Below, one piece after another: positions 3,864 through 28,818 of a stretch of 42,660 bases of DNA. The notes under the pieces are model-generated. The model did no database searches. It was not told the origin of the DNA and was given only the letters and a program-made list of their open reading frames with translations. Positions within the stretch are counted from its first letter, which is position 1; the number at the start of each line of letters is the position of its first letter. The DNA is taken from positions 1 to 42,660 of the IMG/VR virus record IMGVR_UViG_3300031746_000053; one strand, given 5' to 3'. The position numbers were made by a program, and so were the translations under genes. The stretch comes from a virus.

Positions 3864-4613
3864 GTGGGGCGGCTGTGCACGGTCTGCACGCATCCCGACT
3901 GTGAGGCGATTGACAAGCTCCTGGTCGGGCATAGCACGTCAATTCGCGGCATAGGGCGTCAGTACGGCTTGAAGCTGGACGCGCTTCGGCGGCACAAAGC
4001 CCACCACCTGACGGCGGCGATGAAGCACGGGCAAGAACTCGCGGAGGCGGCGCAGGTCGGCCTGGTGGCGCGGATCGGGGCTCGGGTAGCGCAGCAGGCC
4101 GAGCTCGAGGACGTGCGGTCCCTGGACCTCTACAAGCAGCTCGGCAAGCTGTTCGGGATCGTCACCAAGCTGTTCGATGCCTGCGACCGGTTCCTGGCCG
4201 ATCCCTCGAACCCGGGCCAGTACGACCTCAACCCCCGCGCGCACGAGCTTGAGGTCACCTACCTGGAAGTCGTGGGCGAGCGCGGGAACGGGACGCAGAT
4301 CGTCGTCCCGAAGAAGGCGCTGCTGTCCGAGTTGCTGCCGCGCTTCGAGGAGAAGGCCGACACGTCGGTCCTGGGCGTGCGGTGGAAGGTGACGGATCCC
4401 CGCCGGCTCGTCCTGGAGGCGGCACACCGACTTGAGGGGCAGCAGCGTTGGCTGGAGGAGCTGGTGCAGAAGGCGAACAAGGAGGGCGGGGCGGACCTGC
4501 TGCGCTCCCCGGAATGGCGGGCGCTGCGGGCTCGGATCGTGGAGGCGGTGGGACAGTGCGAGGAGAGCTGCCGGACTCGGATCGTGGCCGCGCTGGGCGC
4601 GACGCCAGACTGA
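3864..4613 (+). CDS. small terminase-like DNA-binding protein
   Basis: Codes for 249 residues from GTG 3864. The N-terminal 50 residues have a C-x-x-C-x-H-P-x-C cluster (CTVCTHPDCEAID) followed by a helix-turn-helix pattern R-G-I-G-R-Q-Y-G-L-x-x-x-A-L-x-R-H-K-x-H-H. This arrangement is common in proteins just upstream of large terminases. The rest is helical and partly acidic, with a YLEVVGERGNGTQIVV segment. It probably recognises phage DNA for packaging and recruits the terminase ATPase. Position two genes before the ATPase supports this. The call is by pattern and context, not by full-length homology. Confidence 0.6.
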   Translation: MGRLCTVCTHPDCEAIDKLLVGHSTSIRGIGRQYGLKLDALRRHKAHHLTAAMKHGQELAEAAQVGLVARIGARVAQQAELEDVRSLDLYKQLGKLFGIVTKLFDACDRFLADPSNPGQYDLNPRAHELEVTYLEVVGERGNGTQIVVPKKALLSELLPRFEEKADTSVLGVRWKVTDPRRLVLEAAHRLEGQQRWLEELVQKANKEGGADLLRSPEWRALRARIVEAVGQCEESCRTRIVAALGATPD

Positions 4614-4834
4614 CGGAGCGCCGGGAGATCTACTGCCCGGGGTGCGAGGCGTTCCGGCCGCTGGTGCGCGAGGCGCTTTTGCCCGCGAGTTGCGTGGACC
4701 TGGTCGAGGGCAAGGTCGGGGACCTGGTGTGCGGGGCGTGTCACCTGGTGATCGCGACGTTGCGGACGGTGCGCACGGTGCGCGAGCCGGGGGTCGTTGA
4801 AGGGTTCCGGCGGGGTGAGCGCTCTCGAGCGTGA
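4556..4834 (+). CDS. zinc-ribbon protein
   Basis: The convincing part begins near 4610 and contains a zinc-ribbon: YCPGC, about 30 residues, then CGACHLVIATL. The start is uncertain. GTG 4556 gives 92 residues but overlaps the previous gene by 58 bases, while a CTG at 4610 would form a CTGA overlap and give 74. Proteins with this paired CxxC and the C-H-L-V-I-A ending recur next to terminase genes in phages and have no settled function. It overlaps the terminase ATPase start by 20 bases, so it is probably co-translated with it. Confidence 0.65.
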   Translation: MRGELPDSDRGRAGRDARLTERREIYCPGCEAFRPLVREALLPASCVDLVEGKVGDLVCGACHLVIATLRTVRTVREPGVVEGFRRGERSRA

Positions 4835-5660
4835 CCTGACCTACGCGCTGGATCCGGTGGCGCTGGTGCGAAAGGCCGGCCTCGAGGCCGACGAGTGGCA
4901 GGCGGGGATCCTGCGCTCCGAGGCGCCGCGCATCCTGCTGAACTGCCACCGCCAGTCAGGCAAGTCCACCGTGGCGGCTGGTCGGTCCATCCACCGGGCG
5001 CTGTACCGGCCGCCGTGGCTGGCTCTCATCATCAGCCCCACCGAGCGCCAGTCGCAGGAGACCCTGCTCAAGGCCAAGACGATCGCCAACGCGGTCGGGC
5101 ATGACGTTGACCTCGGCCTGGACAAGGACAATGAGCTCTCGCTGACGTTCCACAACGGGAGCCGGATCATCGCGCTGCCAGGCAAGGAACGGACGATCCG
5201 GGGCTACTCCGGGGTCAACGAACTCATCATCGACGAGGCCGCGCGCGTTGAGGACAAGGTGTACGCCTCGGTGCGCCCGATGATCGCGGTCAGCGGCGGC
5301 AACATCATCGGGTTGTCCACGCCGTTCGGTAAGCGCGGCTTCTTTCACTACGAGTGGACCAAGGGCGGCGATGCCTGGGTGCGGGCGGAGCAACCGGCCG
5401 CGAAGATGGGCCTCGCCGGCGAACTCATCCCGCTGTCGCCGCGGATCACGCTGGACTTCCTTCTGGACGAGAGGCGGCGGTATCCCGAGTGGTGGTTCCT
5501 GCAGGAGTACCTGTGCCTGTTCTCGGACACCGAGGACCAGGCGCTCGCCTACGAGCTCGTGATGGGGGCACTCGGTGGGGCTGCGCCGCTGCACCTCACC
5601 GTCCCGGCGGAGATCCGTCGCGAGGACCTGGTGGGCGGGGTGGAGAGGCTGAGGATATGA
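4815..5660 (+). CDS. large terminase, ATPase subunit (split TerL)
   Basis: Codes for 281 residues from GTG 4815; a TTG at 4797 would add six. It has the ATPase half of a phage large terminase: Walker A CHRQSGKS at about residues 44-51, a conserved ISPT-x-RQSQE adenine/arginine region, Walker B LIIDEA at about 137-142, and the coupling motif STPFGKRG at about 168-175. It powers DNA translocation into the prohead through the portal. The nuclease half is not fused but coded by the next gene, joined by an ATGA overlap. There is no sign that this is a sequencing frameshift: the ATPase ends cleanly and the next gene has its own N-terminus. Confidence 0.9.
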   Translation: MSALERDLTYALDPVALVRKAGLEADEWQAGILRSEAPRILLNCHRQSGKSTVAAGRSIHRALYRPPWLALIISPTERQSQETLLKAKTIANAVGHDVDLGLDKDNELSLTFHNGSRIIALPGKERTIRGYSGVNELIIDEAARVEDKVYASVRPMIAVSGGNIIGLSTPFGKRGFFHYEWTKGGDAWVRAEQPAAKMGLAGELIPLSPRITLDFLLDERRRYPEWWFLQEYLCLFSDTEDQALAYELVMGALGGAAPLHLTVPAEIRREDLVGGVERLRI

Positions 5661-6334
5661 GGGAGCGGAAGCCGCAACCGGCCGAGTTGGCGTTGTTCGG
5701 CCTCGACGTCGGGCAGGCGCCGGATCCGTCGGCGCTGACGATGGTGCAGCGTTCGGGGCTGGTGCCGGCGCTGTTCGGAGTCCGCTACCTGCGGCGCTGG
5801 CCGCTCGGGACCGCGTACCGGTCGATGGTGGCCGAAGTCGCACGGGTGGTGAAGGACGGGGCCGTCGCGACGATGCAACGGTACCTGGTGGTGGACGCCA
5901 CGAGCGTTGGCCGGCCGATCGTCGAAATGCTCGAGGGCGAGGGCCTGGATCCGATCGCCGTGACCATCACCGGCGGCTTCGACGTGACCGTGGTTCGGCC
6001 GGTGAAGGGCCAGGAGCCGCTCGCTGTCGAGGCGTACCACGTCCCGAGGCGGGACCTAATCTCCACCGTCCAAGTCTTGCTTCAGGCGAAGCGGTTGAAG
6101 ATCGCCGAGGGCCTGCCGGATGGCGACCAGCTCATTCAGGAACTCCTCTCGCTGCGCCGCAAGCTGACCGAGAAGGGCGAGACGTTCGAGCCGGAGAGTT
6201 CGGGGGCGCACGACGACCTGGCGCTCGCGCTGGCGCTGCCGTGTTGGTACGGGTCGCACGTCCTTGGGAACGTCTACGAGCCGCGGCCTGGGGACGAAGT
6301 GGAGCGCGAGACGGTGATCCCACTGAAAGTCTAG
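5657..6334 (+). CDS. large terminase, RNase H-like nuclease subunit (split TerL)
   Basis: Codes for 225 residues starting at ATG 5657 in the ATGA overlap with the ATPase gene. Three acidic motifs of the terminase nuclease are visible: G-L-D-V-G-Q-x-x-D-P-S-A-L near residue 15, Y-L-V-V-D-A-T near residue 75, and G-A-H-D-D-L-A-L-A-L near residue 195. These residues coordinate metal ions in the RNase H-like fold that cuts the concatemer during headful or site-specific packaging. Together with the ATPase subunit the length (about 506 residues) equals a normal single-chain terminase. Confidence 0.87.
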   Translation: MRERKPQPAELALFGLDVGQAPDPSALTMVQRSGLVPALFGVRYLRRWPLGTAYRSMVAEVARVVKDGAVATMQRYLVVDATSVGRPIVEMLEGEGLDPIAVTITGGFDVTVVRPVKGQEPLAVEAYHVPRRDLISTVQVLLQAKRLKIAEGLPDGDQLIQELLSLRRKLTEKGETFEPESSGAHDDLALALALPCWYGSHVLGNVYEPRPGDEVERETVIPLKV

Positions 6335-19771: not shown

Positions 19772-20851
19772 ATGGCAAAGGTAGGCGAGATTCTGGCGCC
19801 GATCCTTGGGGGCCTGGTCGCGGCCGCGAGCCCGCAGGCCGCCCACGGCGTCGGCACGGCGCTGGACATTGGGATCTCCATGCGCGAGGCGCGGCGCCGG
19901 CGCGAGGCTGAGGCGCAGGCGGCGGCACGGCAAGGGCGTGTGGGTGCCTTCCTGTCGAACCTGCCCGACGACCCGGAGGTGCCTGAGATGAGCGCCGCCA
20001 GGGAGATCGCCAGGGCCGGCGACGTCGAGACGGCGACCATGCTCTACCGCGAGGGGGCGACTGCGCGCTCGCGCAGGGCGCAGACTGCCGCCGAAGAGAA
20101 GAACAAAGGGAGCGCGATCGCGGCCCTGGTGGACGCGGCGACGAGCGAGACACCGCCACTCGGTGGCGGACCTCCGAAGCCCCCGAGCCGCCGCCAAAGC
20201 GTGATCCGTGCCCTTGCGCCGCTGGCGCCCGCCTCCGCTGCGAGCATGGCCGTGGCTGCCGAGGAGGGCTACCCGCCGCCCGAGGGGCCCCGCCTGGTGC
20301 ACCGGGTTGGGCCGCAGGGCGAGGGGCTCTACCGCTGGTCACCGCAGCAGGATGGGTGGGTGTTCGACAGCCCGGGCGAGGCGAAGCCGCCGGGCGCAGC
20401 GCACCTGGTCGAGACGGTGGACGCGCAGGGCAGACCGATCAGGAAGTGGGTCAAGGAGGGCGAGGAGCCACCTCCGCCACCGCCGCATGTGCCACCGCGG
20501 GAGGAGGACGTCGCGGGCGAATACAACCGACTGGCCACCGCGGAGCAGTCGGCCCAGGTCCGGCTGGCCAAGGCGAGGCAGGCCGATCTGCAGGGGTGGG
20601 AGAAAGACCGGCCTGGGTTTGTGCGTCGGGCGCTCGGGAGTCCATACCCCGAGCAGCCTCCGAAGTCGGAGCTGACGACGCAGGCCGAGCAGGAGCTCGC
20701 GGCGATCCGGGGCGCACTGGGTGAGGCTGCGGCGCGGCTGCGCGGAGCCCGGAGGGTCCCCGCCGGCGCTGGTGGCGCCCCCGCGGCGTCGCATGGCCAG
20801 GGACCCCCGCCGAAGACGTGGGGCGAGTTCAAGCAGAGCCGGAGCCCCTGA
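19772..20851 (+). CDS. presumed internal virion / ejection protein C
   Basis: Codes for 359 residues. It has a short hydrophobic N-terminal region (ILAPILGGLVAAASPQAA), long Ala/Arg/Glu helices (SMREARRRREAEAQAAARQG, RARSRRAQTAAEEKN) and Pro-rich linkers (EEPPPPPPHVPPREE). A small globular part around residues 170-230 (LYRWSPQQDGWVF) is present. It lacks the YAGFRRR tag. It ends with a TGATG overlap with the giant gene, so stoichiometry may be coupled. The role is inferred from composition and place. Confidence 0.55.
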   Translation: MAKVGEILAPILGGLVAAASPQAAHGVGTALDIGISMREARRRREAEAQAAARQGRVGAFLSNLPDDPEVPEMSAAREIARAGDVETATMLYREGATARSRRAQTAAEEKNKGSAIAALVDAATSETPPLGGGPPKPPSRRQSVIRALAPLAPASAASMAVAAEEGYPPPEGPRLVHRVGPQGEGLYRWSPQQDGWVFDSPGEAKPPGAAHLVETVDAQGRPIRKWVKEGEEPPPPPPHVPPREEDVAGEYNRLATAEQSAQVRLAKARQADLQGWEKDRPGFVRRALGSPYPEQPPKSELTTQAEQELAAIRGALGEAAARLRGARRVPAGAGGAPAASHGQGPPPKTWGEFKQSRSP

Positions 20852-23800
20852 TGGCGGTCAACTGGCGGACCTTCGACGATCCCGAGTTTCAGGCGCTCCC
20901 GGAGGAGGAGCGTCGGAAGGGGTTCGCCGAGGTCGCCGGCTCGGACCCGGAGTTTCAAGGGCTGCCGAAGGAGGAGCAGCTCAAGGGCTACGCGGAGATC
21001 GTGCGCCCGGCGGCGATGAACCCGCGCGAGGGTGGCATCATCACCGAGCCCGGGCACCCGTGGCTGCAGGCGGCCAAGGTGCCACAGGTCGCGGCCGAGG
21101 GCGTCCCGCAGCCGCTCGTGCCTGGGAACGTTGACCTGACCAAGCGGCCCGCGGTCGTGAACCCCGACGGCACCGTGAGCAGCATCCGCTCGATCGGCAT
21201 CGAGGAGGACGGTCACCGGGTCGTGATCCCCACGGTCAGCGACGACGGCCGGGTGATGTCGGACCAGGAGGCGGTGGACCACTACCACCGCATCGGGCGC
21301 CATCTCGGGATCTTCAAGACCCAGGACGAGGCCGACGCCTACGCGGAACTCCTCCACGAGCTGCAGGCCCGCGGCGACACGCGCTACCCTGAGTTGGCGG
21401 CGGCGGAACCGCCGCTCGAGCCGAGCCACGCGCCCGCGGCTGCGCCCCTCATCGTCCGCACCCCCCGCGGCATCGAGTCGCGCGACATCATGGGCCGGCG
21501 GCCGCCGATCCTGGCGCGCGAGGCGGGGCTCTACCCGATCACGACCGAGGAGCGCGTGCGCCGCGACGTGGCGGCTGGTTGGCGCTACGGCAGGCAGACG
21601 CTGGCCGCCGAGCCCTACCGGCAGGCGGCGGACCTGCTGCGGTCGTACGGCCGGCTGGTGGGGATCCAGGCGCAGCCGGGCGAGGTCCTCGCCGAGGCGG
21701 CCACCAACCGCGAGGCACCGCCGGCGACGGCCTTGGGAAAGGTCGCCGCTGCCCCTGGTGAGGTCATGGCTGGCTTGGCGCCCGCGGTTGAGGCCGGGGT
21801 GGTTGGGGTCCCGGGAAGGCTGGTCCTGGGGGCTTTCCTGGTGAACCGGTTCATGCAGGATTACGGGGCCGGGAAGCCGATGGGCGAGGTCGCGGCGGGT
21901 GTCGCGACAGAAGCCGCGACGCTGGCGCCGATGGTGGTGGGCGGCGCGCTGGCCGGTCGTTTCCTCGGCCCAGCGGTGGCCCCCGCAGTCGAGCGTTGGG
22001 TGAGTCGCCTGATCGGTGCTGGTCCGGCCGAAGCTGCGATGGCTCCGGCGCTGGCTCGGACTGTCGCATCGGGGGCCGAGCGCATCACCCGCGCCACGGG
22101 CGCCGCGCTGCCGGTCTACGTTACCGCGAAGGTGCAGGGCGCCTCGGACGAGGACGCTCTCAAATCCGCGGTGGAGCTCGGAATCCTCGACCTGGGCATG
22201 GGGGCCTTTCACCCGACCATGCGCCAGGCGGTCCAGCAGGCGGTCGAGGAAGGCGGCGCGCGGGCCTGGGCTGCTCGGGCGATGTCCCCGGAGCGCGCGC
22301 AGGTGCAGGCGATGCCGGGGCGGCCGGCGCTGCCTGGCGGGCTCATGGACCGGATCAGGGCCGCGCGCGAGGCCGCCCCGGCGCCGAGGACTACCGTCGA
22401 GGCTGCGTTGGAGCAGGTTCGAGGCGGTCGTCCGGCGATGCGTCCCGAGGCGGTGGAGGCCCCGCCGATTTCCACAGAGATTTCCGCAGACCTCGAGGCG
22501 CGGGATGCCGCCCGGCGGGCTGGATTCCGTCGCACCGCCGCCCCTCCGTGGTTGCTCGGGCACCGCCTGGAGGAGTGGGCCAACGCCAGGATGAGCGACG
22601 AGGAGGCCGCGCGCGCCAAGCCGTCCTGGGTGACGCCGGAGGAGGCGAAAGGCCAGCTCGGGGCCGCTGCGGCCCGCGGGGATGGCCTGTACCGTGCCGC
22701 CGGGCCGGGGCAGGTGCCCCCCGAGGGGTGGTTGCCAGCTCCGCCCGAAGGACCTACTGTAGAGGGGGAGGTTGCTGGTGGACAACGAGCAGCGCCCGCT
22801 GTACCTGGTCAACCCGGCGCCAGAGCCGCCCCGGCAACTGGAGTGGGAGGTCGTGCATATCTTCCGGCCGAGGCCCCACGCCCCGGAGTCGCCGGAGGAG
22901 TCGGACCGGCGGGCCGCGGAGGAGGACGCGAGACTGCAGGATCTCGGGCAGTTCTTGAGGACCTGGCTTACGAACTATCTCGCCAAGGGCCTACTCCCGT
23001 TTCGTCGCAAGACTTCGAGCTCGTCGACCCGGCCAACCCCCCCGAAGCCCTCTCTGGAGAAGTAGAACTAGCCCACGCGCTGATCCGTGACGCGACCGGC
23101 CAGGAGCCGCTGCTGGTGCGGATCGCGCGTCCCGAGGTCTCCGACCGCTTCGACGGGCTGTTCCTGCGGGCAGTCCGCCCCCGCAGCGGAGGGCGTCCGG
23201 GTCACGGTGGGCGCATCGTCCTCAACATCAACGCGGACGCCCCCCTGACGTTCGTCGCCGGGCACGAGCTCGCGCACGAGATCCGCAACAACGCCCCCCA
23301 CCTGGCGAAACCCGTCCTGGACGTGATCGCCGAGGAGGTTGACCTCGGCAGGTGGCAGGCGGGGACCAGGGCGCGCATCGGACGGGAGCGCCCCGAGTGG
23401 GAGTTCATGGGGGACTTCCTGGGGGAGCAGATCAAGCGCCGGGAGTTCTGGGCCAAGCTGGCGGATCGGGCGCCGCGGGCCTTCCAGGAGTTGGTGTGGA
23501 GGCTTGTCAACGTTCTCGACCGCTTGATCCGGAAGGTGCCGAAGGAGTACCAGGCCGAGCCGTACGTCCGCGACGTGGAGCGGTTGCGCGACGTCTACAC
23601 CGTGATGCTCTCGGACTACGCGGGGCTCCGGGGCGTCGGCGAGGTCAAGGGCCCGTCGTCGTCGGCGATCTCCGCCCGGATGGTGGAGTTGCGCGGTCAG
23701 GCGCGCACGGAGGGCAGCGACGACGCCGTCCGTGATTGGGCGCGCGAGAACCCGATTCGCCTCCCGAAGGTGCCGAAGCAGCAGGGCGAGCTGGCCGGTG

Positions 23801-26800
23801 TCGGCTGGCAGCGCCTGGCGGGGATGGGCAAGCGCGCCGGCACGGTGATCGAGGACTACGCGGGGATCCTCAAGGAGTACCGGACCAGCGATCGGAAGGC
23901 TGGGGGTCCTGATGAGGCGCTCAGCAACGCGATCGCCGCCGGGCTACTCCCCGAGGGCGCCACCACGAACGACCTGGTGGCGATCCTCCAGCAACCCGCT
24001 CCGCGGTGGCGGACGCGGGCGGTCGAGTCACTCAAGGGCGACCAGCGGCTGGGGGACGTGGAGCTGGCGCAGGAGCGCGAGCTGCTGCACGAGGCCCTGG
24101 CGGAGGCGTTCGGGCGGTTCGAGGCGGGTGAGTCGGCCCTGCCGCCGCAGCCCGAGCCGACAGGGGAGGAGCCGCCGTTCCTGCGGCCGCGGCGGGTCCG
24201 TGAAGCGGCGCCGGAGGAGACGGCACTCTCTGGTCATGTGCCGGATTCGGACCGAGTGCGCGTCGAGGCGTCCTGGCTTCAGGAGGCGGAGCGCGAGCCG
24301 ATGCGGCTGGCGGTCAACGACCGGACCCTGCGAGCGAGCGCGATACCGGTCGAGGTCGGCCGGGTCGGGCCGACCTACGTCTACCGAGACGCGGTGTGGG
24401 TCGACCTTCGCGGCCCCAACCAAAAGGTCCACGACCTCCTCCGGATCAGGCGGCTGGCGGTGCGTGGGAACCAGGTGCTCGATCGCTGGGGCGTGCGGGC
24501 GAACTTTGGTGAGGAAGCGGCGGGAGAACCCGAGTACCTGCGCCCGCGCCGGGAATCGAGGTGGCTGCCGGGAATGCAGCCGGAGGGGGAGCGGCGACAG
24601 GGCGCCCTCTTTGGTGCCGAGGAGGCGCAGCTCGAGCCCCTGGTGAGACCCACCGTTCCCGAGGCACCGCCGGCACAACCGCGCGGGCAGCAGGTCAGCT
24701 TGTTCGAGGGTGAGGAGCGCGAGGCGGCGCGCGACGCGGTGGAGGCCAGAAGGCTCGCGGCCGAGAGGGAGACGGGCCAGCTCTCGCTGGCGGGCAGGCT
24801 TGGTGCGCGGGCGAGGGGTGAGGTCCCCCGGGCCACCGAAGAGCTCAAAGGCGGCCCGCAACCCGAGATCAAGCCCGAGTCCCACTTCGCCGAACCGATG
24901 AAGCCGGGTGAGGTTCCGGGCGACGGGATGATGGGTTATGCCCCTCCAGGCGCAAGGTGGACCGGCGATCCCGGGGCTTACCCCGGTGAACCGTACTATG
25001 CCCTTGACCTGCCGAAAGAGGGCGGGATGGAGGACGGGAAAGCCTACATCACCGAGAGAGAGTTGCCTGACGGCAGTGCGGTGTGGGAGGCGTGGCTCGC
25101 GGATGGTAGGGGTGGACAGTTCACGTCGCACGATGACGCGGCCAGGTGGGCGGAGGAACAGGTTGATGCTGTGCCCACACTTCGGGCCGGCGGCGTCAAG
25201 GTGGAGCGGACCAACCGTCTCTTCCAGCCGGTCCCAGCGGATCAGGCCACCCAACCGGTGATGCACTCCTACAACGTGAAGGTCGGCGAGGTGTTCTATG
25301 GCTTGCCGACCTACCGGTCGGAGCGGGCCGGTGTGTACCGGGTGGTGAGGCTCCCAAGGGGTATGGAGCCCGGGGAGCTGATGACTTCGAGCCGCGTGAC
25401 CGTCGAGAACCTGGCGACTGGCAGGCGGACGAACATGGCCGTGGAAAGTCTACGGGTGGCGCCGGAGGAGGTGCGTCGTGCCGGAGCAGTACGAGCGGAG
25501 GCGGGACTCGCTCTACCTGGAGAACCTGCGGAAGGGCATGAGCCGGCAGGAGGCGTACGACCGCGCGCAGGCGCTCTCGGCGAGCCTGTGGAACCGGGAC
25601 CACCCGGAGAACCCGGTGGTGGGCCAGCGCGGCCGGAACGCCCCGGCCCCATCGCCCGGGCCGCTGGCAAGGTTGCGGGCACGGCGCAAGCGCAGCCGTG
25701 GGAGATGACGCTCGTCGAGCGAATCACGAAGGCCGCCGAGGCGGTCGGGGTGTCCAGCGAGGAAACGCAAGGGCTCCTCGAGCTGTTCCAGGTCCGGGCG
25801 CAGGCGTGGGCGAAGGCGTTCAACCGTCCGGCGGAGGAATGGTACGAGAAGACCCTGGCGGGCGCCGAAGTTGGCACAGAAGCCGAACGGGAACGTCTGA
25901 CCCAAAACGTCCTGGCCAGGGAAGAATTGCACCCCACGCACAGGGCGGCGGTCGAGGCTTATGCCAAGGAGCATGGCATTCCGTTTGAGGCTGCTCTCGC
26001 CCGCTCTCGCGTGAAAGTGGCGGCCACCACAACCCTGCTGGATGACGGCCGGAGTCAGCTCACCCTGTTCCGGGGCGCCAACATCAAGAACCTCCTCCAC
26101 GAGGCGGGGCATGTCTTCTTCAACGAGTTGCCGGTAGAAGACAGACTCACGTTGCGTGGCGCCTACGACCTCAAGGTAGGCGAACTTTGGGGCCGCGAGC
26201 ACGAAGAACGGTTCGTGCAGGACTTCCAGGAATACCTGCGCACGGGTGAGGCTCCGGTGCCAGCAGCACAGACGCTGTTCGAGCGGTTCAAAGTGTGGCT
26301 GAGCGAGTTGCTGCGCGGGTTGGAGCGCCAGGTGAAGCCAGAGGTTCGGCGCGTCCTTGGCAAGATGCTCGGGGAAGAGGAGGGGCCGTTCTTCCTCCGG
26401 CGCCGCCGTCTGGCCGACGAGGCTTCGGCTCGCCTGTTCGATGAGGAGATCGTTGCCGACCTGAAAGGCCGGCACGAGGCCGACGTCGAGCGGCAACGGG
26501 CGGCACGAGCTGAGGCTGAGGCCGAGGGTGGAGAGCCGCGTGGTGCCCCTCGAGGTGTGCGTTTCACGGGCCCGCTGCCTGGTGTCAAGACGCCCCCGGA
26601 GGCGATGGAACAGGGCACGCTCCGCAGCGTGGCCAAGAAGCTGGCGGACGAGGGTGTGGCTCTCGGACGGTTCCTGCTGGTCACGATCCCGCAGGGTGAG
26701 TTCGTATTCCCCTCGCCGGAGCGGCTGTTCCGGTCGTTGGGACCTGGCGGTGAGGAGTTGTTCCAGCGCGGGGAGAACGCCAAGACCAACGGCCAGAAGT

Positions 26801-28818
26801 ACGGCAGCGAGCTCAGCGAGCCGCTTTGGCTGGCATGGAAGGCCCTCGATCGCACTGAGCGGAAGTGGCTCGGGGACAAGTTCGTGTGGGCCTACGAGGA
26901 CCGAAAGAAGATGCCGACGCCGGGGCTGGTCAAGTTTGCCGAGGCGTACCGCGCCGCCGTCACCTGGATCGGGGACAAGGCAGAGGACCTCGGCGTGATG
27001 GCCACGCCGGGCGGGGGTGGTGAACCGCGACCGTTCGCGGCCCGTGATCCGGCAACCTACGTCCCCCACCGGCTCACGGGTGACGCGCGCGACGCCCTCC
27101 GCAACCGGCGCGGGCGGATCTACCAGCGTCTCATTGAGGAGGGCAAGGCGCGTGGGATCCCGACGGAAATCCTGTGGGAGCTCGTCAACCCGCCGTTCGT
27201 GACCAAGCGGCACGGGAGCCTCGAACACCCGCGCCTGGCGGACCTGCCGCGCACCATCCAGGTCGAGGGCAAGACGGTCAAGGTGCTGGAGGACGACCCA
27301 GCGATCCTCGGTCAGCACATCATCAGCGCGACCCGCCGCCTAGCCATCATCGAGCAGTTTGGTCAGGAGGGGAATGCCGAGTACCTGCGCGAGCTCGCGG
27401 AGCGGATGGTGGCGCACGGCATGGACGCGGACCAGGCCGAGCACATGATCCCGCTGGTCTGGAGGCGGCTGCAGGGGGCGCAGCGCGCGGGCAACCCGTT
27501 CATGACGACCAGCTGGAAAGTGTTGTGGAACGCGGTCGAGGCTCTCGCGGCCGGCTCGAACCTGTCGCTCGCGGTAGTGCCGAACCTGTTTGGTGGTCAC
27601 CTGCCGTTGACCATCCGGCACGGCGTCGTGCCGGCCATCAAGGGCTTCATCCACGCCTGGACCACCGCGATCGGGAGCGCCGACGAGACGCGGCTCCGCC
27701 GCCTCGCGTATCTGCACCAGGACCTGATGCGGCCACTCGTCGGGCGTGACCTGCTCGCCGGTATGCCGATCACCGAGACGATCCAACGCCTCCCGGCTCG
27801 GATCGCCAGCCGCGTCCTGCGGGTGACGGGTTTCCAGCTCGCCAACCGGAAGATCAATCAGGCGGTGGCGTGGTCGGTGGATAAGTTCCTGCTCGACTCG
27901 GCCCTCCAGTCGATCCGGGAGGGGAAGTCGGCCAAGTGGGGCGCGCGGGGCGTGACGCGCGACGCCGAGACGGCCCGGCGCTACCTCGTGCAGCAGCTCG
28001 GCTTCTCGAAGGACGACGTGGAGCGCATGGTGTTCGGGGAACCGACTGAGGCCGATGTGTCGCGGGCGATGCAGAAGGAGATCGAGAACGTCAACGTGAT
28101 GAACGAGTCGGCGATGGCCCGCCCGCCGCACATTGACAACACGCTCTGGCGCCTGGTGATGGCTTACACGAGCTACTTTCGGAAGTTCGGCAAGACGAGC
28201 GAGTACGCGGTGCGGGAGGTACGCGAGGGGAACGTGGCGCCGCTGCTGCGGCTGCTCTTCGCGGGGTCGGTGACGGGCGAGGCGATCATGGCCGCCCGCA
28301 ACTTCTTCAAGGACCGAAAGCGGGAGGACGAGTCGTGGTGGGCGGGCCTCTACTCCGACCTGGTGGAGGTGGGGGCCCTTGGGCTGTGGACGGCGGTCGA
28401 CTACGGTGTGCGGCACTTCGGGGAGTTCGGGCATGAGTTCTTCCCCGACGTGTTCAACCCGCCGCAGACCGAGACGCTGAACCGGGTGGCGACGGGGCTC
28501 GCGCGTGCCTGGCGCCAAGGGACACTGCGCCCGCTGTTCCAAAACCTCGCATTCACGGCGCCAATCCTCGACGTGGCCGAGAAGCAGTTCCGGCGCTACG
28601 ACCCCGACTACATCGCCGAGCGCCTGTCCCACATGGTCTACACCGGTCGGACGGTAAGCAGGGGCAAGCAGCGTGAGCCTCTTCAAGCGCTGCCGGGTCG
28701 GGAGAACACCGCGAAGATGCTGATGGAGCGGTGGCGGGCGATGGGTCGCACCGATGAGGAGCTGCTGGAGCGGATCCGGGCCCTGCGAGCTCGGCCAGCG
28801 GAGGTGGTGGGGGAATGA
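20851..28818 (+). CDS. giant polyvalent ejection protein with two metallopeptidase motifs
   Basis: Codes for 2655 residues. In order: two N-terminal D-P-E-F-Q-x-L-P-x-E-E repeats (residues 9-48). Then a conserved phage module, N-V-D-L-x-x-R-P-x-V-x-N-P-D-G to G-R-H-L-G-x-F (about 94-173), and a hydrophobic Ala-rich stretch (305-380). A first gluzincin-type peptidase has GHELAHE (H805, E806, H809), with a candidate third ligand near 850. There are repeated LRPRR elements around 1110-1240. A second peptidase has LHEAGH (H1750, E1751, H1754) with a following EERFVQDFQEYL helix. The C-terminus from about 1960 on is a helical region of the polyvalent-protein type. Such proteins are packaged and injected with the DNA and act early in the host. 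Two small genes are overprinted inside it, in Gly/Ala/Pro/Arg-rich linkers. Its stop overlaps the next start (ATGA). Confidence 0.85.
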   Translation: MAVNWRTFDDPEFQALPEEERRKGFAEVAGSDPEFQGLPKEEQLKGYAEIVRPAAMNPREGGIITEPGHPWLQAAKVPQVAAEGVPQPLVPGNVDLTKRPAVVNPDGTVSSIRSIGIEEDGHRVVIPTVSDDGRVMSDQEAVDHYHRIGRHLGIFKTQDEADAYAELLHELQARGDTRYPELAAAEPPLEPSHAPAAAPLIVRTPRGIESRDIMGRRPPILAREAGLYPITTEERVRRDVAAGWRYGRQTLAAEPYRQAADLLRSYGRLVGIQAQPGEVLAEAATNREAPPATALGKVAAAPGEVMAGLAPAVEAGVVGVPGRLVLGAFLVNRFMQDYGAGKPMGEVAAGVATEAATLAPMVVGGALAGRFLGPAVAPAVERWVSRLIGAGPAEAAMAPALARTVASGAERITRATGAALPVYVTAKVQGASDEDALKSAVELGILDLGMGAFHPTMRQAVQQAVEEGGARAWAARAMSPERAQVQAMPGRPALPGGLMDRIRAAREAAPAPRTTVEAALEQVRGGRPAMRPEAVEAPPISTEISADLEARDAARRAGFRRTAAPPWLLGHRLEEWANARMSDEEAARAKPSWVTPEEAKGQLGAAAARGDGLYRAAGPGQVPPEGWLPAPPEGPTVEGEVAGGQRAAPAVPGQPGARAAPATGVGGRAYLPAEAPRPGVAGGVGPAGRGGGRETAGSRAVLEDLAYELSRQGPTPVSSQDFELVDPANPPEALSGEVELAHALIRDATGQEPLLVRIARPEVSDRFDGLFLRAVRPRSGGRPGHGGRIVLNINADAPLTFVAGHELAHEIRNNAPHLAKPVLDVIAEEVDLGRWQAGTRARIGRERPEWEFMGDFLGEQIKRREFWAKLADRAPRAFQELVWRLVNVLDRLIRKVPKEYQAEPYVRDVERLRDVYTVMLSDYAGLRGVGEVKGPSSSAISARMVELRGQARTEGSDDAVRDWARENPIRLPKVPKQQGELAGVGWQRLAGMGKRAGTVIEDYAGILKEYRTSDRKAGGPDEALSNAIAAGLLPEGATTNDLVAILQQPAPRWRTRAVESLKGDQRLGDVELAQERELLHEALAEAFGRFEAGESALPPQPEPTGEEPPFLRPRRVREAAPEETALSGHVPDSDRVRVEASWLQEAEREPMRLAVNDRTLRASAIPVEVGRVGPTYVYRDAVWVDLRGPNQKVHDLLRIRRLAVRGNQVLDRWGVRANFGEEAAGEPEYLRPRRESRWLPGMQPEGERRQGALFGAEEAQLEPLVRPTVPEAPPAQPRGQQVSLFEGEEREAARDAVEARRLAAERETGQLSLAGRLGARARGEVPRATEELKGGPQPEIKPESHFAEPMKPGEVPGDGMMGYAPPGARWTGDPGAYPGEPYYALDLPKEGGMEDGKAYITERELPDGSAVWEAWLADGRGGQFTSHDDAARWAEEQVDAVPTLRAGGVKVERTNRLFQPVPADQATQPVMHSYNVKVGEVFYGLPTYRSERAGVYRVVRLPRGMEPGELMTSSRVTVENLATGRRTNMAVESLRVAPEEVRRAGAVRAEAGLALPGEPAEGHEPAGGVRPRAGALGEPVEPGPPGEPGGGPARPERPGPIARAAGKVAGTAQAQPWEMTLVERITKAAEAVGVSSEETQGLLELFQVRAQAWAKAFNRPAEEWYEKTLAGAEVGTEAERERLTQNVLAREELHPTHRAAVEAYAKEHGIPFEAALARSRVKVAATTTLLDDGRSQLTLFRGANIKNLLHEAGHVFFNELPVEDRLTLRGAYDLKVGELWGREHEERFVQDFQEYLRTGEAPVPAAQTLFERFKVWLSELLRGLERQVKPEVRRVLGKMLGEEEGPFFLRRRRLADEASARLFDEEIVADLKGRHEADVERQRAARAEAEAEGGEPRGAPRGVRFTGPLPGVKTPPEAMEQGTLRSVAKKLADEGVALGRFLLVTIPQGEFVFPSPERLFRSLGPGGEELFQRGENAKTNGQKYGSELSEPLWLAWKALDRTERKWLGDKFVWAYEDRKKMPTPGLVKFAEAYRAAVTWIGDKAEDLGVMATPGGGGEPRPFAARDPATYVPHRLTGDARDALRNRRGRIYQRLIEEGKARGIPTEILWELVNPPFVTKRHGSLEHPRLADLPRTIQVEGKTVKVLEDDPAILGQHIISATRRLAIIEQFGQEGNAEYLRELAERMVAHGMDADQAEHMIPLVWRRLQGAQRAGNPFMTTSWKVLWNAVEALAAGSNLSLAVVPNLFGGHLPLTIRHGVVPAIKGFIHAWTTAIGSADETRLRRLAYLHQDLMRPLVGRDLLAGMPITETIQRLPARIASRVLRVTGFQLANRKINQAVAWSVDKFLLDSALQSIREGKSAKWGARGVTRDAETARRYLVQQLGFSKDDVERMVFGEPTEADVSRAMQKEIENVNVMNESAMARPPHIDNTLWRLVMAYTSYFRKFGKTSEYAVREVREGNVAPLLRLLFAGSVTGEAIMAARNFFKDRKREDESWWAGLYSDLVEVGALGLWTAVDYGVRHFGEFGHEFFPDVFNPPQTETLNRVATGLARAWRQGTLRPLFQNLAFTAPILDVAEKQFRRYDPDYIAERLSHMVYTGRTVSRGKQREPLQALPGRENTAKMLMERWRAMGRTDEELLERIRALRARPAEVVGE
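22778..23065 (+). CDS. overprinted nested gene 1 (+1 frame inside the giant gene)
   Basis: Codes for 95 residues from GTG 22778, with a GGGGGAGG ribosome site six bases upstream. The protein looks genuine: RPLYLVNPAPEPPRQLEWEV, then an acidic segment and a helix LGQFLRTWLTNYLAKGLLPF. In its first 60 codons 55 third positions are G or C, while the giant frame over the same bases has only 25 of 60, so the coding signature has switched to this frame. The giant protein here (residues 643-738) is a Gly/Ala/Pro/Arg-rich string without a domain. No family recognised. It could be a separate small protein expressed from the giant transcript. Confidence 0.7.
   Translation: MDNEQRPLYLVNPAPEPPRQLEWEVVHIFRPRPHAPESPEESDRRAAEEDARLQDLGQFLRTWLTNYLAKGLLPFRRKTSSSSTRPTPPKPSLEK
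25478..25708 (+). CDS. overprinted nested gene 2 (+1 frame inside the giant gene)
   Basis: Codes for 76 residues from GTG 25478, with GGAGGAGG six bases upstream, the same spacing as nested gene 1. The first 57 codons all end in G or C; the giant frame has G or C at only 27 of those 57 third positions. The sequence follows a recognisable small phage protein plan: P-E-x-Y-x-x-R-R-D, G-M-S-R-Q-E-A-Y-D-R-A-Q-A, then W-N-R-D-H-P-E-N-P-V. The basic C-terminus (ARLRARRKRSRGR) may bind nucleic acid. The giant protein over this stretch (residues 1543-1619) is low-complexity Gly/Pro/Ala/Arg. Confidence 0.75.
   Translation: MPEQYERRRDSLYLENLRKGMSRQEAYDRAQALSASLWNRDHPENPVVGQRGRNAPAPSPGPLARLRARRKRSRGR

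Follow-up and report, generated by a model that had tools for sequence, protein, structure and literature searches.

The longest gene of this phage, which codes for a giant virion protein, contains in its +1 frame what appears to be a genuine small gene (S2) with its own Shine–Dalgarno (SD) site and GTG start codon, and we consider it quite likely that this gene was captured into a giant gene that already existed. The observations computed are the switch of coding signature at S2, the coincidence of that switch with the SD site and the GTG, and the recurrence of the pattern in related giants, including one insertion with a corresponding empty site. The window analysed, 42,660 bases long, is a complete virus record and consists of a single metagenomic contig; the features concerned are as follows.

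20851..28818, + strand: giant gene, coding for a polyvalent or ejection-type virion protein; longest gene of the phage
21115..21369, + strand: N-terminal domain of the giant, matching enterobacterial podophage DNA-transfer/IVP-C-like proteins
22767..22771, + strand: SD-like site of S1, GGAGG, followed by the 6-nt spacer TTGCTG
22778..23065, + strand: S1, nested +1-frame gene of 95 aa, GTG start
23263..23277, + strand: HELAH, zincin-like motif 1 of the giant, following S1
25464..25471, + strand: SD-like site of S2, GGAGGAGG, with a 6-nt spacer (TGCGTC) to the GTG
25478..25708, + strand: S2, nested +1-frame gene of 76 aa, GTG start, TGA stop
S2 codons 1–57: core with the full coding signature; codon 58 is CCA
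S2 last 19 codons: basic tail that looks like a shadow of the giant frame
25705..25707, + strand: giant-frame ATG over the S2 stop (ATGA), at which translation of a C-terminal giant product might re-initiate
26098..26112, + strand: HEAGH, zincin-like motif 2 of the giant, following S2

The giant protein thus has two zincin-like motifs, and each of them follows one of the nested genes.

The phage is temperate, with an integrase at 1122–2324, and its portal (phrog_1216) and head protein (phrog_1328) genes are of podophage type. Its terminase large subunit lies in two genes, an ATPase (4797–5660, Terminase_6N) and a nuclease (5657–6334, a weak match to Terminase_6C), joined by an ATGA overlap. 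The giant reading frame is open from a GTG at 20818 to 28818, and its start is likely to be the ATG at 20851, which forms an ATGA overlap with the stop of the upstream gene. The N-terminal domain is 46–58% identical to DNA-transfer and structural proteins of enterobacterial podophages, far above the rest of the giant, and the matches in a plasmid search were confined to it. The second zincin domain is homologous to Bbp10 of BPP-1 and also matches giants of Pseudomonas phage AF and Xanthomonas phage SAC; the matched giants (BPP-1, AF, SAC and others) are each a single open reading frame (ORF) of about 2000–2300 aa. With a Bbp10-type zincin in one ORF downstream of the head genes, the gene belongs with the BPP-1-like giant ejection/polyvalent genes. 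Scans of IMG/VR and of GTDB genomes returned no near relative of the phage, the portal relatives being 23–27% identical.

The original prediction had described S2 as a 76-codon gene at 25478–25708 with a GTG start six bases after its SD site, and had counted 57 initial codons all ending in G or C, against 27 of 57 third positions in the giant frame; all of this was reproduced when the sequence was checked and the positions were recounted. We trained a codon model on 14 further genes of this phage; over these 57 codons it gave log-likelihoods of +40.2 for S2 and −25.4 for the giant frame, whereas the largest loss suffered by the correct frame in 1256 windows of ordinary genes was 2.9. The best switched segment around S2 was 25474–25647. 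A frame and codon scan of this region had been proposed at the outset, and in a blind Viterbi segmentation, which had no knowledge of the ORFs, the path left the giant frame at 25475 and returned to it at 25650. The same path contained a further switched segment, at 22773–23002, which corresponds to S1, a gene that the original prediction had missed; its coding signature reaches about 23002–23010, with codon scores of +33.2 for S1 vs −32.1 for the giant frame. The switch points at 22773 and 25475 each lie within 5 nt of a nested GTG. The two genes share the layout of GGAGG, six nucleotides and GTG, and among the off-frame ORFs of at least 70 codons in the giant gene they alone have GGAGG 5–9 bases before the start. 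A third, weaker frame-2 region at 26400–26560 was dropped, having a score of 15.4 and no ORF with an SD site and start, and lying outside the Viterbi path.

Each third position in the +1 frame is at the same time a first position in the giant frame; the run of 57 G/C-ending codons therefore means that every giant codon over it begins with G or C, so that no giant stop is possible. Even with this coupling between the phases, the run is far beyond chance. Open frames are as such frequent: 76-codon stretches of normal genes of this phage are open in 50% of cases in the relevant shadow phase and in 18% in the other, and when the giant protein was held fixed and its codons were resampled synonymously, the +1 frame was open in 83% of 20,000 trials. 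The +1 coding score in those trials was 0.0 ± 5.4, with a maximum of 19.6; the score of S2 is more than 7 standard deviations above this null, and its signature is therefore not forced by the giant protein but exceeds the constraint which that protein imposes. The G/C third positions of the giant over S2, 27 in number, likewise compare with a null mean of 47.3 and a minimum of 36. Shuffling the codon order of the giant 1000 times gave 0.9 ORFs of at least 70 codons with an SD site and start per giant, and their coding score never exceeded 5.6. An open frame arising by chance over a low-complexity, GC-rich linker, with no gene there at all, might be suggested by the ease with which alternative frames stay open in 67% GC DNA, but we give this explanation almost no credence in view of the S2 score and of the SD site and GTG that coincide with the switch. 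S2 thus has a start, a stop and a ribosome-binding site of its own and lies as an intact ORF in another frame of a longer gene; the codon model, the null distributions and the position of the SD site and GTG at the switch together strongly support the original claim that the +1 frame holds a real small gene.

The 3′ end of S2 is not a clean gene end, because the 19-codon tail scores −8.6, compared with +5.1 for the giant frame. The frame-2 signature stops about 55 nt before the S2 stop (TGA, 25706–25708), and the giant signature resumes there; from this reversal of the codon statistics, S2 seems to have been left without its original stop and to run on into giant sequence until the TGA. Such an ending could also be produced by compensating indels, whether assembly errors or real frameshifts, in which case 25474–25650 would simply be giant sequence displaced and then restored, and the locus is known from a single metagenomic contig. 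We regard this as quite improbable, because it would require two pairs of indels in one gene, each beginning at an SD site, six nucleotides and a GTG, and because dozens of independent contigs, and also the GenBank phage MW202722, show the same pattern.

Interior +1 segments, with an SD site and an ATG at the switch, are present in several giants that share the Bbp10-type zincin domain. The A3 domain, which follows such segments, was used as a query and gave 80 loci. In all 80 the giant is one continuous ORF, and 43 of these giants hold between them 59 shifted segments at or above threshold, every one in the +1 phase; a control scan of 80 portal ORFs gave none, with a maximum score of 11.3. 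Large shifted segments of L019/L020, L046 and L082 were left out, the wrong long ORF being judged to have been taken as the giant, as were segments located right at the beginning of a stop-to-stop ORF, which were treated as 5′ extensions. The nested features found were the following.

L197–L276, about 70–150 nt ahead of the A3 domain (position 4001 of most loci): shared +1 motif
L208, L212, L213 and L224 at 2091, +1 phase: nested phrog_2423 protein of 52–56 aa, KQAVAIALSVA
L217 and L263 at 2103, L242 at 2058, +1 phase: the same nested phrog_2423 protein (52–56 aa, KQAVAIALSVA)
L251:4680–5214, +1 phase inside the giant: HNH gene, a 552-nt insertion relative to the close relative L252

The shared motif, which resembles ETEEDG-x-RAG-x-LRLLKAR and lies just upstream of the A3 domain, occurs in 72 of the 80 loci, in genomes of 34 to 69% GC, and an SD-like site precedes a start in 55 of the 72. 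By column entropy, the most variable codon position fits the +1 frame over −69 to −28 and the giant frame from −27 onwards. That conservation in the +1 frame ends about where conservation in the giant frame begins is what might be expected of programmed frameshifting, with S2 as an alternative N-terminus joined by −1 slippage to the downstream half of the giant. However, inspection of the S2 tail by eye showed no canonical slippery heptamer, and the stop positions of the +1 ORFs vary among the relatives, and we consider this explanation very improbable. In MW202722 two +1 ORFs follow one another, with a stop and AAGGAGG before an ATG between them; its annotation gives the giant and no nested ORF, and the annotated records of such relatives that we examined list the long gene alone.

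Other nested genes in these giants belong to known families, which points to capture rather than to an origin de novo. A 56-aa protein of phrog_2423 (E = 2e-21) is nested in the giants of several relatives, and the giant of L251 contains an HNH endonuclease gene (phrog_3377, E = 8e-45) that is absent from L252 and from the other giants having both flanks, while the giant frame remains open throughout the insert. The empty site in L252 means that here, in a phage other than ours, the capture step is seen directly.

Codon usage indicates which of two overlapping frames came first, because the older one keeps the habit of the genome. In the present case the small frame is the typical one: S1 and S2 keep the codon habit of the genome and the giant frame does not, and the linker therefore looks like the newcomer. 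Its composition over S2 (GC1 1.0, GC2 0.74, GC3 0.47) is the pattern of a shadow frame, and S2 is probably older than the Gly/Pro/Ala/Arg linker of the giant, which would be its shadow. The description of S2 as overprinted probably has the direction reversed, the giant reading through a small gene older than its linker. Classic overprinting, with the giant linker present first and S2 arising de novo in its +1 frame, would agree with the single giant ORF in all relatives checked and with the lack of a clear homolog of S2, as for a new gene, and it is how nested viral genes usually arise (PMC8227390). It predicts poor codons in the new frame, whereas the reverse is seen by about 65 log units, and neither the composition of the linker nor the captures in relatives, with their known-family nested genes and the HNH gene with its empty site, favours it; we therefore think it unlikely. 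The original prediction had offered as an alternative that a small gene was swallowed when two larger genes fused, and had suggested that relatives might carry it free-standing between two halves. Fusion is not supported, because no relative that we examined has a split giant: the gene is undivided in the 80 A3-domain loci and in BPP-1, AF, SAC and UFJF_PfDIW6.

Searches of Pfam and PHROGs and by tblastn gave no convincing homologs of S2 or S1, and the small-phage-protein plan that S2 had been said to show found no convincing match there. An assignment of S2 to ADSL_C was rejected, its E-value of 0.0012 falling below the curated cut-off. The protein gp45 of Arthrobacter phage KeAlii (NC_071031.1) matches S2 with about 40% identity over 44 aa and 20 identical columns (E = 0.04), which is too weak to argue for homology on sequence, and a search for intermediates linking the two found no homologs; gp45 is a free-standing protein of 56 aa beside a SprT-like protease gene. 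The single-sequence AlphaFold model of S2 has helices at 3–18 and 23–41 and a tail of low confidence, and that of S1 a single helix at 39–69.

From these data we infer that S2 would be translated from its own SD site and GTG on the mRNA of the giant, having been captured at an inter-domain position of a pre-existing giant rather than invented on top of it. Its G/C-ending codons would present the giant ribosome with G/C-starting codons, free of stops, which it could read through, yielding a disordered Gly/Pro/Ala/Arg linker, while the S2 frame would yield a soluble two-helix protein; S1 would be another instance within this giant. Capture of the small genes seems to have taken place in the only phase in which the giant frame remains open, and from the mRNA of a virion gene they may give rise to small, soluble products that are for the most part helical. 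As a guess, S2 might serve the neighbouring domain of the giant as partner, chaperone or inhibitor.

We lean somewhat towards a broader reading, in which podophages have, in their giant ejection/polyvalent genes, a general trap for small genes, where +1 inserts are expressed, their shadow becomes linker, and some, such as the ETEEDG...LRLLKAR family, are kept and remain unannotated. If so, the trapped genes would be mobile and accessory genes expressed from their own start sites, the ETEEDG...LRLLKAR family would have been kept across many phages within the virion programme, some Gly/Pro/Ala/Arg ‘linkers’ of giant phage proteins would be explained as shadows of real genes, and a set of unannotated phage proteins would be implied in one class of virion genes.

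Term searches of the open-licence literature gave no account of small genes nested in this class of giant gene, although such an absence is weak evidence. Homing endonucleases are known to insert into phage genes, and the HNH gene of L251 resembles such an insertion, except that the host frame is not split and remains readable across the insert. Textbook nested genes are Rz1 within Rz of lambda and E within D of phiX174. The giant resembles the phage polyvalent proteins surveyed by Iyer et al. (2017; PMC5512222), which are very long and multidomain, with zincin-like domains; smaller ORFs with polyvalent domains can lie near the main gene, and a term search of that survey turned up no description of a gene nested out of frame in another. 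The embedded endolysin of lysA in mycobacteriophage Ms6 (PMC3111421) is reportedly likewise a second product from inside a longer gene, but it is in frame, whereas S2 lies in another frame. The overprinting of nested and overlapping viral genes has been reviewed (PMC8227390), and S2 is like those genes in being a small gene wholly within a larger one, in another frame and with its own initiation site. It differs from them in that the normal codon signature lies in its own frame, with the shadow in that of the host, and in that the nested genes of its relatives include known families. The route proposed here would be the opposite of textbook overprinting, an old small gene being swallowed and the host frame being the new one, and would work in the only phase in which codons ending in G or C rule out stops.
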